A DNA stretch of 45,021 bases from Dehalococcoidia bacterium. Lineage in GTDB: Bacteria; Chloroflexota; Dehalococcoidia; Tepidiformales; Tepidiformaceae. The DNA lies in assembly GCA_009839725.1 (NCBI GenBank), contig VXPF01000024.1, forward strand, positions 49,754 through 94,774, given 5' to 3'. The number at the start of each line of letters is the position of its first letter. Position 1 is the first letter of the stretch. Shown one piece after another: positions 10,258 through 33,303 of the stretch. A program made the translations under genes and the position numbers. A model generated the notes under the pieces. The model ran no database searches. It was not told the origin of the DNA and saw only the letters and a list, made by a program, of their open reading frames with translations.

Positions 10258-10546
10258 CGTACGGTACGCGCCCGGCCGTGCTAGGCGGGGAGCTAGCGGT
10301 GCCCTGTAACCCGCAAACCGCTCAAGCGGGGCTTAATTCCCGTCCGAGGGGTCGTCTCTCCGGGGACTGCCTTCGCAAAGCGGCGTTGACGATCTGGTCC
10401 TGCGCGGCGGAGCACTACGAACCTGGTCAGGTCCGGAAGGAAGCAGCCATAAGTAGAACGCTCCGGGCGCCGCAGAGTAGCCGGGTCCGAGCTGGCTCGC
10501 GCGGTGCAAGCCTGGGTTTCATTCCGAAGACGGGTGCACGGTCGTT
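10258..10546 (+). ncRNA. ffs: signal recognition particle RNA, large bacterial type
   Basis: SRP RNA is the scaffold of the particle that delivers nascent membrane proteins to the translocon. The Ffh-binding domain IV tip GGTCAGGTCCGGAAGGAAGC at about 10424-10443 is diagnostic. Upstream lie the Alu-domain segments CCGTGCTAGGCGGGGAG and GCGGTGCCCTGTAACC, as in Bacillus-type 6S scRNA. GGTGCACGG near 10533-10541 pairs with CCGTGC at 10276-10281, closing the RNA. Length is about 270-290 nt, so this is the large form with an Alu domain, not the 4.5S form. The exact ends are inferred from the pairing and the promoter. Confidence 0.92.
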
Positions 10547-30047: not shown

Positions 30048-30139
30048 GCGAATCCGTCCAGCCTGAACGAGAGTCTGAGATTGGCAGTTTAGCACTCCCC
30101 CAGAGGGACTGCTAACTCGGGCCTGGTCGCTCCGCGCAC

Positions 30140-30145
30140 TACAAT
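30140..30145 (+). promoter_or_regulatory. -10 element of tRNA-Ser
   Basis: TACAAT ends seven bases before the first base of the tRNA, the ideal spacing for a transcript starting at or one base before the mature 5' end. No clear -35 was seen. Confidence 0.5.
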
Positions 30146-30152
30146 CGGATCC

Positions 30153-30241
<89 letters not shown>

Positions 30242-30275
30242 TGTTTCGCTTACACCGCACCCACTTCCTGCCCCG

Positions 30276-30281
30276 TAGAAT
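30276..30281 (+). promoter_or_regulatory. -10-like hexamer before first selenoprotein gene
   Basis: TAGAAT sits in CCCCGTAGAATCCG, 32 bases before ATG 30314. The same 14-base string occurs before the second copy at a similar distance, which supports a promoter kept in both copies. Confidence 0.45.
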
Positions 30282-30313
30282 CCGTCCCGGCTGCTATCTA
30301 CGGAGATATTCCG

Positions 30314-31360
30314 ATGTCCGCCACGCTGACCCTGCTGCACGATGGCCGTGCCGACGAAATCCCCGTCGTGAACCTCTCCCGGCCCACCATCGCCGAGGGG
30401 GCGCTTGAATCCATGCTCGGCTGGGAGCTGCAGCCCGAGGGGCTCTGCCGGGGAACCATGTGCGTCCCCGTCGACCAGGAGGCCCTCGTCCGCGAGGACG
30501 GCCTCGACCTGCGGATTCTCGCCGATGCGCTCCAGCGCCCCCTCGTGACCGACGAGGGGCACGCCGTCGCCGCCCTGGGCGCCTCGCACCACGATCGCGG
30601 CGACGTCCTCGCCTCCCTGGAGGCGCCCGACTTCACCCTCCCCGATCTCGAGGGGAACCTGCACTCCCTCAGCGACCACCGCGGCAAGAAGGTCCTGCTC
30701 GTCGCCTACGCGTCCTGGTGAGGCTGCCGCTACGACCTGCCGGTCTGGCAGAAGGTGTACGAGGAGCTGAAGGACGAGGGATTCGCCGTCATCACCGTCG
30801 CCATCGACCGCTCCGCCGCCGACGCCCGCCCCTGGATCGAGCTGGCCACGCCCAGCCACCCCAGCCTCATCGACACCGAGCACCTCCTGCCGGACCTTTA
30901 CGGCATCATCAACGTGCCCACCGTCATCTGGATCGACGAGGACGGGCGCATCGCCCGTCCCAACGACGTCTCCTTCGGCTCCAACAAATTGAAGGTGATG
31001 ACCGGCATCGACTCCGAGGCGCACCTCAAGCGCCTGCGCGCCTGGGTGCGCGGCGACGGTCCCGCCATGACGCCCTCCGAGGTCCGCGCCCACCAGGAGC
31101 TGCCGACGGCCGAGGAGCAGGAGGCCCGCGCCGAGTTCACGCTCGCCTGGTGGCTCTCCCAGGAGGGCCATGCCGGCGATGCCGAGCGCCACTTCGTGCG
31201 CGCCGGCGAGCTCGCCCCGCATGACCTCACCATCAGGCGAGGCTCCATGCCCATCCGCGGCCTCAACCCCATGGGGTTCGCCTTCCTCAAGCTCGCGCTC
31301 AAGAGCGCCCTGAAGCGCAAGTCCCTCTACCTCTACCGTCCGCTCAAGGACAGCGCCTGA
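30314..31360 (+). CDS. redoxin-domain selenoprotein, copy 1 (TGA136 = Sec)
   Basis: A 348-residue protein read through an in-frame TGA at 30719-30721 as selenocysteine 136. The N-terminal ~100 residues (LTLLHDGRADEIPVV, C45-x4-C50 in GLCRGTMC) are not a family I know. Residues ~105-260 are an AhpC/TSA-like redoxin: APDFTLPDLEGNLHSLSDHR, active site AYASW-Sec-GCRYDLPVW, and the cis-Pro region NVPTVIWIDEDGRIARP. The C-terminal ~90 residues are helical (EFTLAWWLSQEGHAGDAERHFVRAG, TPR-like). The downstream half stays in frame for 213 codons and matches copy 2 throughout. A SECIS-like hairpin follows the TGA. It is likely a cytosolic thiol/selenol oxidoreductase or peroxidase; the substrate is unknown. 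SD-like GGAGAT precedes the ATG. Confidence 0.88.
30719..30751 (+). promoter_or_regulatory. bacterial SECIS element, copy 1
   Basis: Starts with the Sec TGA. CTGCC (30737-30741) pairs with GGCAG (30747-30751) around loop GGTCT. The loop occupies positions 24-28 counted from the T of TGA, and the same GGUCU loop is present in the E. coli fdhF SECIS at about the same distance. SelB would bind it to deliver Sec-tRNA. Confidence 0.8.
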
Positions 31361-31423
31361 CATCGCTCGAAGCCGCCACTCCCGGCTCCCCCTCCCGCGA
31401 ACGCGCCGCCCGTCCCCTCCCCG

Positions 31424-31429
31424 TAGAAT
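31424..31429 (+). promoter_or_regulatory. -10-like hexamer before second selenoprotein gene
   Basis: TAGAAT within CCCCGTAGAATCCG, 30 bases before ATG 31460, repeats the element before copy 1. It suggests that the second copy has its own promoter even though it follows copy 1 closely. Confidence 0.45.
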
Positions 31430-31459
31430 CCGGCTCACCTGCTCCCGGGAGCCATTGCC

Positions 31460-32506
31460 ATGCCCGACACCCTGACCCTGCTGCACGACGGCGGCAGCGA
31501 CGAGATCACCGTCGCCGACCTCGCCCGTCCCACCATCCCCGCTGACGCCCTCGAAGACACCCTCGGCTGGGACCTGCAGCCCGAGGGCCTCTGCCGCGGG
31601 GTCGCCTGCGTCCCCGTCGACCAGTCGGCCCTCGTCCGCGAGGACGGGCTCGACCTGGGCGTCCTCGCGGACGCCCTCCAGCGTCCACTCGTGACCGACG
31701 AGAAGCACGCCGTCGCCGCCCTGGGCGCCTCCCACCACGACCGCGGTCAGGCTCTTGCCTCCCTGGAGGCCCCCGACTTCACCCTCCCCGACCTCGACGG
31801 CACCCTGCACTCCCTCAGCGACCAGCGCGGCAAGAAGGTTTTGCTTGTCGCCTACGCCTCCTGGTGAGGCTGCCGCTACGACCTGCCGGTCTGGCAGTCT
31901 CTCTTCGAAGAGCTCAAGAACGAGCGCTTCAGCGTCGTCACCGTCGCCATCGAGCGTTCGCCGGAGGACGCCCGCGAATGGATCGAGGCGGCGAAGCCTG
32001 CACATCCCAGCCTGATCGATACCGAGCACGTGGTGCCCGACCTCTACGGCATGATCAACGTGCCCACCATCCTCTGGATCGACGAGGAGGGCCGCATCGC
32101 GCGCCCCAATGACGTCGCCTTCGGCTCCAACGACTTCAAGGAGATGACGGGCATCGACTCCGAGGCGCATCTGGAGCGCCTGCGCGCCTGGGTGCGGGGC
32201 GAGGGCCCGGCGATGACGCCGGAGGAGGTGCGCGCCGCCCAGTCCCTCCCGACCGAGGCCGAGCAGGAGGCGCGCGCCGAGTTCACGCTGGCGTGGTGGC
32301 TCTCCCAGCGCGGCCACGGGGACGATGCCGAACCCCACTACGTCCGCGCCGGCGAGCTTGCCCCCCACGACTTCACCATCCGTCGCGGCACCATGCTCAT
32401 CCGCGGCCTCGACCCCATGGGTGAGGACTTCATGCAGATCGTGAACGAGTGGACCGAGGCCGGGAACACTTTCTACCGGCCCCTCGAGGCGGCGAGTTCC
32501 TCGTGA
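31460..32506 (+). CDS. redoxin-domain selenoprotein, copy 2 (TGA136 = Sec)
   Basis: Tandem paralogue of the preceding gene, also 348 residues with TGA at codon 136 (31865-31867). By eye about three quarters of residues match copy 1, including C45-x4-C50 (GLCRGVAC), AYASW-Sec-GCRYDLPVW and NVPTILWIDEEGRIARP; the last ~25 residues differ. Codons around the active site carry silent differences, yet the 33 bases from TGA onward are identical. That points to selection on the RNA. Both copies were probably made by duplication and then kept as selenoproteins. The stop overlaps the SDR start (GTGA), so copy 2 and the SDR are likely co-translated. Confidence 0.88.
31865..31897 (+). promoter_or_regulatory. 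bacterial SECIS element, copy 2
   Basis: Identical in all 33 bases to the element of copy 1: TGA, then stem CTGCC (31883-31887)/GGCAG (31893-31897) with loop GGTCT. The bases right after the hairpin diverge (AAGGTG versus TCTCTC), so the conserved block ends exactly at the stem. Confidence 0.8.
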
Positions 32507-33303
32507 GCGACCTCGAGGGCACCGCCGCCATCGTCACCGGGGCCGCACACGGCATCGGCAACGGTATCGCCCGCGTCCTCGCCGGCGAGGGCGTCGACCT
32601 GGCGCTGTGCGACATCAATCCCGCCGTTCACGAGGTCGCCGCCGAGCTCGAAGCCGGCGGCGCCAGCGTCATGGCCGCCGAGGCCGACGTGAGCGTGCCC
32701 GACGACGTCCGCCCCTTCGTGGACGCCGCCATCGAGCGCTTCGGCCGTATCCACACCATGGTCAGCAACGCGGGCATCTGGCGCGCCACCTCTCCCATCG
32801 ACCCCTGGGAGAAGTCGATCGACGACTTCGATGCGCTGATAGCGACCAACCTCAGGGGCGTCTTCCTCTGCGGTCGCGCCATCGCCCCCCACATGGTCGA
32901 GATGGGCGGCGGCAACATCGTCAACATCGCCACCGACCACATCTGCCCGCCGCCCGGCTACAACACCGGCGGCGGCACCCGCATGGACGTGTACGACGCC
33001 TCCAAGTGGGGCATCAACGGCTTCACCCAGGCCTGGTCGCGCGTGCTCGAGCCCCACGGCGTCCGCGTCAACGCCCTCTGCATGGACGCCACCGACTCGG
33101 AGATGATCCGGGGCGCCCTCGGCATGACCCCTCCCCAGGAGCTGCTCGACACCTGGATGCGTCCCGAACAGATCGCCGGTCTCCTCGTCGCCCTGCTCGA
33201 GGAGGGCCCGGAGGGGCGTACGGGGGAGAACATCGGCATCTGGCTCGACCACGAGATCGCGCTGCCGCCGCGCGTCGACCCGCTTCCCCACCGCTTCCAG
33301 TAG
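32503..33303 (+). CDS. short-chain dehydrogenase/reductase
   Basis: A 266-residue SDR. The NAD(P) motif TGAAHGIG lies near residues 13-20, DVSVPDDV near 65, SNAGIW near 89 and the catalytic pair YDASKWG near 160-164. The usual serine about 13 residues before the Tyr is not seen; the segment NIATDHICPPPGYNTGGG replaces it and is longer than normal. It may still be active using another hydroxyl, or may have changed function. GTG 32503 overlaps the selenoprotein 2 stop. Substrate unknown; association with the redox pair is positional only. Confidence 0.83.
   Translation: MSDLEGTAAIVTGAAHGIGNGIARVLAGEGVDLALCDINPAVHEVAAELEAGGASVMAAEADVSVPDDVRPFVDAAIERFGRIHTMVSNAGIWRATSPIDPWEKSIDDFDALIATNLRGVFLCGRAIAPHMVEMGGGNIVNIATDHICPPPGYNTGGGTRMDVYDASKWGINGFTQAWSRVLEPHGVRVNALCMDATDSEMIRGALGMTPPQELLDTWMRPEQIAGLLVALLEEGPEGRTGENIGIWLDHEIALPPRVDPLPHRFQ

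Follow-up and report, generated by a model that had tools for sequence, protein, structure and literature searches.

Two adjacent genes for predicted selenocysteine (Sec)-containing redoxins were analysed in a 45,021-nucleotide stretch (the window) of contig VXPF01000024.1, from the Dehalococcoidia bacterium assembly GCA_009839725.1. The genes, A and B, lie in tandem on the forward strand. Each has one in-frame TGA at codon 136, within the motif W-U-G-C (U stands for Sec), and each ends at a second TGA (31358-31360 in A and 32504-32506 in B), so that reading through codon 136 gives 348 amino acids per gene. The features that bear on decoding, including a putative selenocysteine insertion sequence (SECIS) hairpin in each gene, are as follows:

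30314..31360, + strand: predicted selenoprotein gene A, a WAxxUGC-type redoxin with a basic C-terminal tail, 348 amino acids plus the stop TGA
30719..30721, + strand: predicted Sec136 codon of copy A, in-frame TGA
30737..30751, + strand: putative SECIS hairpin of copy A, CUGCC-GGUCU-GGCAG, with a UGA-to-loop spacing of 20 nucleotides
31460..32506, + strand: predicted selenoprotein gene B, with an acidic C-terminal tail as in single-copy relatives, 348 amino acids plus the stop TGA
31865..31867, + strand: predicted Sec136 codon of copy B, in-frame TGA
31883..31897, + strand: putative SECIS hairpin of copy B, identical in sequence to that of copy A

The initial annotation had described a single TGA at codon 136 of each gene with the frame continuing beyond it, and the coordinates and the length of 348 residues were confirmed. 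It had placed the TGA in a Trp-Sec-Gly-Cys active site of the thioredoxin kind. W-U-G-C is indeed present in both copies, but the arrangement is U-x-C and not the C-x-x-C of thioredoxin. Its estimate that the copies have diverged over about a quarter of their length agrees with a protein identity of 76% over 344 residues. As it also predicted, a standard gene caller sees four fragments. With translation table 11, an open reading frame (ORF) of 135 amino acids precedes each TGA, and ORFs of 201 and 158 amino acids with GTG starts follow. Each predicted protein contains exactly three cysteines (C45, C50 and Cys138) in addition to Sec. On the minus strand, a 759-amino-acid open frame (30089-32368) runs antisense to most of A and B and is probably a by-product of the high G+C codon structure.

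The TGA is conserved well beyond this genome. Within the class, 51 of 393 genomes have the long form of the gene, and together they contain 60 such genes at E <1e-70. A TGA lies inside 58 of these genes, two of which (G584 and G599) have further in-frame stops, and the remaining two genes have none. The family is represented by 38 genomes, nine of them from the genus, and seven of these nine have the tandem pair, always with the TGA in both copies. The 29 family genomes outside the genus comprise 11 with one TGA gene, one with a cysteine (Cys) form and 17 without the gene. Elsewhere in the class, G564 and G596 each have two copies on different contigs; the G596 copies are near contig ends and may be a broken tandem pair. 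A search for homologues with Cys or Sec at position 136, also suggested by the initial annotation, gave 105 rows and 92 unique genes (79 long and 13 short). The codon at the Sec site is TGA in 90 of these and TGC in two, and the long form divides into 77 Sec and 2 Cys genes. Across nine gene pairs, the ratio of nonsynonymous to synonymous substitution rates (dN/dS) was 0.04-0.39 on the 3' side of the TGA, similar to the 0.04-0.30 on the 5' side.

The putative SECIS hairpin of both copies is located within the coding sequence and starts at the 16th nucleotide past the UGA. The isolated hairpins have folding energies of -8.2 and -7.7 kcal/mol. The published bacterial SECIS (bSECIS) model, in the available part of its source, has a loop of 3-9 nucleotides with an early G, pairing between N1 and N2 of the apical loop, a stem of 4-16 bp, a spacing of 16-37 nucleotides and a minimum free energy of -7.5 or lower (PMC13188914). 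The hairpins of A and B conform to this model, and their loop-closing pair fits its N1-N2 pairing.

Covariation was assessed in 43 aligned genes (37 distinct), with 500 shuffles and slid versions of the hairpin as controls. All 222 hairpin cells pair. The covariation score was 0.281, compared to 0.086 in the shuffles, none of which reached it, and a maximum of 0.087 in the slid versions. The loop-closing pair joins the third bases of codons Pro143 and Val/Gly144. It takes all four Watson-Crick types among the 90 TGA genes of the wider set (CG 49, GC 28, AU 11, UA 1, with AC in one), and a FastTree tree of the 92 genes requires 13 changes at each of its two positions under parsimony. The stem is standard in all 90 TGA genes, and 89 of them have standard pairs at all six hairpin positions. 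Cys occurs at the Sec site in only two genes, L077 (genome G409) and L114 (G464), which retain a damaged SECIS remnant: the loop pair is broken in L077, and the stem and the loop G in L114. A broken hairpin thus occurs in 2/2 Cys forms compared to 1/90 TGA genes (Fisher p 0.0007, uncorrected for kinship). The TGA is likewise present in the short UGC redoxins (L048-L060), whose hairpin covaries in the same way and has A-U and U-A among its loop pairs.

The host genome (2.83 Mb in 160 contigs, 92.5% complete) contains the Sec machinery that the initial annotation had proposed to look for. Matches were found to selA (514.2 bits, cut-off 268), selB (292.9 bits, cut-off 242), selD (333.5 bits, cut-off 125) and tRNA-Sec (71.1 bits, gathering score 47), and ARAGORN called the same tRNA-Sec. 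The selD gene (L014, contig C160) has an in-frame TGA in GCGG-U-ASK, so that selenophosphate synthetase would be a selenoprotein too. Across the 38 family genomes, selA or selB was over the cut-off in 18 of 18 TGA carriers and in 10 of 19 genomes lacking the gene (Fisher p 0.0011, uncorrected, with the Cys-form genome left out). That genome, G409, retains both selA and selB.

The intact frame, the purifying selection, the covarying hairpin and the machinery suggest that A and B are almost certainly tandem paralogous selenoproteins in which UGA136 is decoded as Sec. One alternative is that nonsense mutations or sequencing errors split ordinary redoxin genes, and the four short ORFs given by a standard caller speak for it. 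Against this stand the TGA kept in both copies of all seven carrier genomes of the genus and in 58 of the 60 long-form matches in the class, and the dN/dS, about as low after the TGA as before it. Because the hairpin is conserved, covaries at synonymous sites and is broken in both Cys forms, we read the genes as selenoproteins and not as products of nonsense mutation. Chance stops or errors, which the initial annotation had already called very unlikely, can hardly be credited. Another possible explanation is that a changed genetic code or a suppressor tRNA inserts an ordinary residue at the TGA. The region directly upstream of gene A encodes a tRNA-Ser with anticodon TGA (30153-30241), but this anticodon reads UCA, not UGA, and the tRNA is not a UGA suppressor. 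In addition, A, B and three neighbours (labelled dtd, epoxide hydrolase-like and cdsA) end at TGA, tRNA-Sec, selA and selB are present along with a conserved SECIS, and both sense-codon homologues carry Cys, the analogue of Sec, at site 136. Decoding as an ordinary residue is only slightly less improbable than the split-gene explanation.

Several observations weigh against the Sec reading or limit it. Two of the five covariation measures failed to exceed the shuffles, namely pairs changed on both sides (99/500 as high) and further pair types (210/500 as high). A mismatch in the loop pair occurs in one Sec form, L111. In both copies, the best 39-nucleotide fold after the UGA is a longer hairpin that overlaps the SECIS (-13.2 and -17.1 kcal/mol), and this alternative is the best 51-nucleotide fold in 5 of 30 genes, including copy B; for copy A, the best 51-nucleotide fold is the SECIS hairpin. 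The constancy of CAG at codon 146 says little because CAG makes up 88% of Gln codons elsewhere. The host selB frame runs off the end of its locus. Among the 18 carriers, selA is missing from G405, and no selB over the cut-off was found in G414 or G417; these three genomes are 77-86% complete. Finally, how the redox centre works, what C45/C50 do and whether B is coupled to a downstream short-chain dehydrogenase/reductase (SDR), all discussed below, are matters of inference.

The predicted proteins would have three parts, a CX4C N-terminal module, a ResA/TlpA-type fold with Sec136-Gly-Cys138, and a tetratricopeptide repeat (TPR)-like hairpin with a variable tail, located in copy A as follows:

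30314..30613, + strand: N-terminal module, residues 1-100, with invariant G43, C45 and C50 (CX4C)
30605..31054, + strand: thioredoxin-fold (ResA-like) domain, about residues 98-247, with W135-U136-G137-C138 and N200-V-P202
31118..31222, + strand: single TPR-like helical hairpin, about residues 269-303, from a profile match

We take N200-V-P202 to be the cis-Pro position of the thioredoxin-fold domain. The ResA/TlpA-like fold is present and the CxxC active site is absent, with U-G-C in both copies. The TPR-like hairpin matched Pfam TPR_2 only below the cut-off. The N-terminal module gave no clear fold match in the PDB. Its C45/C50 pair occurs without exception in the long genes (78 of 78), and the module was found solely fused to the UGC redoxin. 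No signal peptide or membrane anchor was seen in A or B when the sequences were read by eye, without a predictor. The product is likely a cytosolic ResA-like thiol/selenol oxidoreductase.

Such a protein could instead be a peroxidase of the peroxiredoxin kind. Pfam AhpC-TSA and Redoxin both match over the cut-off, and an older name of the family, as it appears in the available literature extracts, is "UGC-containing Prx-like". On the other hand, structural comparison gives DsbE-like and ResA chains as the top matches, and the NCBIfam ResA model scores above the peroxiredoxin models, with the ResA subfamily NF002854 at 71.7 and 63.1 bits, below its 170-bit cut-off. The TxxU motif, which the accessible part of PMC13188914 gives as the peroxidase motif of Sec-containing peroxiredoxins, is absent from A and B, where the U-3 position is Ala133. 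We consider a peroxidase rather unlikely. The role of the CX4C pair is more evenly balanced. In the structure model, C45 and C50 fall in two short neighbouring strands (residues 43-46 and 49-51), a geometry that would also suit a structural disulfide, and the pair could be this or a metal site with no part in electron transfer. Its invariance and its exclusive fusion to the UGC redoxin suit a link to the redox centre, and we give the two possibilities similar weight.

For the tandem selenoproteins, SelB and tRNA-Sec would decode UGA136 at the SECIS hairpin, and the UGA at codon 349 would end translation. Sec136 would then attack a disulfide (or peroxide) substrate, Cys138 would resolve the intermediate to a selenenylsulfide, and C45/C50 or the thioredoxin system would re-reduce it. 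This sequence of attack, resolution and re-reduction seems reasonably probable.

The two copies differ in the charge of their tails (Lys+Arg minus Asp+Glu). In all seven pair-bearing genomes, A tails are +3 to +6 and B tails -3 to -4; the tails of eight single-copy Actinomycetota genes (L027-L034) are -4 to 0. B looks ancestral because its tail is acidic as in the single-copy relatives. In a tree of 30 genes with five of each paralogue, A and B each form one clade (support 100/99), and with midpoint rooting the window copies group with Acidimicrobiia genes. L028, from a metagenome-assembled genome record titled Bifidobacterium breve, is a TGA gene very close to the Acidimicrobiia gene L027 in the tree; this title is probably wrong. 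The pair may have arisen by duplication in one Dehalococcoidia-type genus, with B keeping the acidic tail and A gaining a basic one. Given their opposite tails, A and B probably serve different partners or sites.

Directly downstream of the pair lies one further gene of interest:

32503..33303, + strand: SDR gene, with a GTG start that overlaps the TGA stop of B

Translation of the SDR may be coupled to that of copy B. The junction is the same in the four titled relatives checked, but the surrounding genes are also syntenic and, thus, the linkage may merely reflect close kinship. Elsewhere in the window, a bacterial large signal recognition particle RNA was found at 10276-10541 (190 bits). A fuller proposal is that the N-terminal module has a new, small fold, that its invariant CX4C hairpin serves the Sec-Gly-Cys centre as a built-in reductant in a self-contained selenoenzyme relay, that the basic tail redirected A to a membrane or nucleic-acid partner once the gene had duplicated, and that B remains coupled to the SDR. 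As a whole this proposal is speculative and rather unlikely.

A and B are of a known kind, since they are kin of NCBIfam NF041054 (WAxxUGC_long) and of the published UGC-containing family. NF041054 matches both (271.4 and 272.5 bits, E about 1e-80) below its curated cut-off of 300 bits, which the single-copy relative L029 (Actinobacteria record, 213 bits) also misses. The match runs from residues 22-224 to model positions 4-205, with the UGC centre and the order of N-terminal module and UGC redoxin in common. NF041054 was over the cut-off in 11 of 400 phylum genomes, and its best members in the phylum have one TGA at the same site. Compared to members such as L035 (572 bits), the window copies lack a segment of about 19-26 residues that links the redoxin part to the TPR part, and they have Y for W in WAxx. 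They differ from ResA, TlpA and DsbE in having Sec-x-Cys in place of Cys-x-x-Cys, plus the N-terminal module and the TPR part. The short UGC redoxins share W(A/G)SW-U-x-C-R..LPxW and the SECIS logic with them; in the frames examined, no N-terminal CX4C module precedes the redoxin of these short forms.

The "Prx-like (UGC-containing)" or "UGC-containing TlpA disulfide reductase" selenoprotein family has been described, in the extracts available, since Zhang and Gladyshev 2008 (PMC2398784; PMC9312934; PMC13188914) and has, like the window copies, an AhpC-TSA/cd02966 fold with a UGC motif. The extract of PMC2398784 gives 46 Sec and 855 Cys sequences for the broader family in Global Ocean Sampling (GOS) samples, so the published family is mostly Cys, in contrast to the 77 Sec and 2 Cys of the long form. 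Adjacent selenoprotein genes reported in the same extract belong to different families. The available portions of these accounts do not mention the N-terminal CX4C module, its tandem pair or the tail divergence. Our literature search did not find a genus-level duplication with opposite tail charges, a CX4C module restricted to a UGC-redoxin gene, or the broken SECIS of Cys forms.

For annotation, these results replace four gene-caller fragments with two intact predicted proteins. Compensatory SECIS changes at codon third positions, broken upon the change from Sec to Cys, allow bacterial Sec genes to be tested cleanly from sequence. The nearly all-Sec long form (77/79) and its exclusive CX4C module point to a redox job in which selenium is hard to replace, and make the long form a concrete biochemical target.
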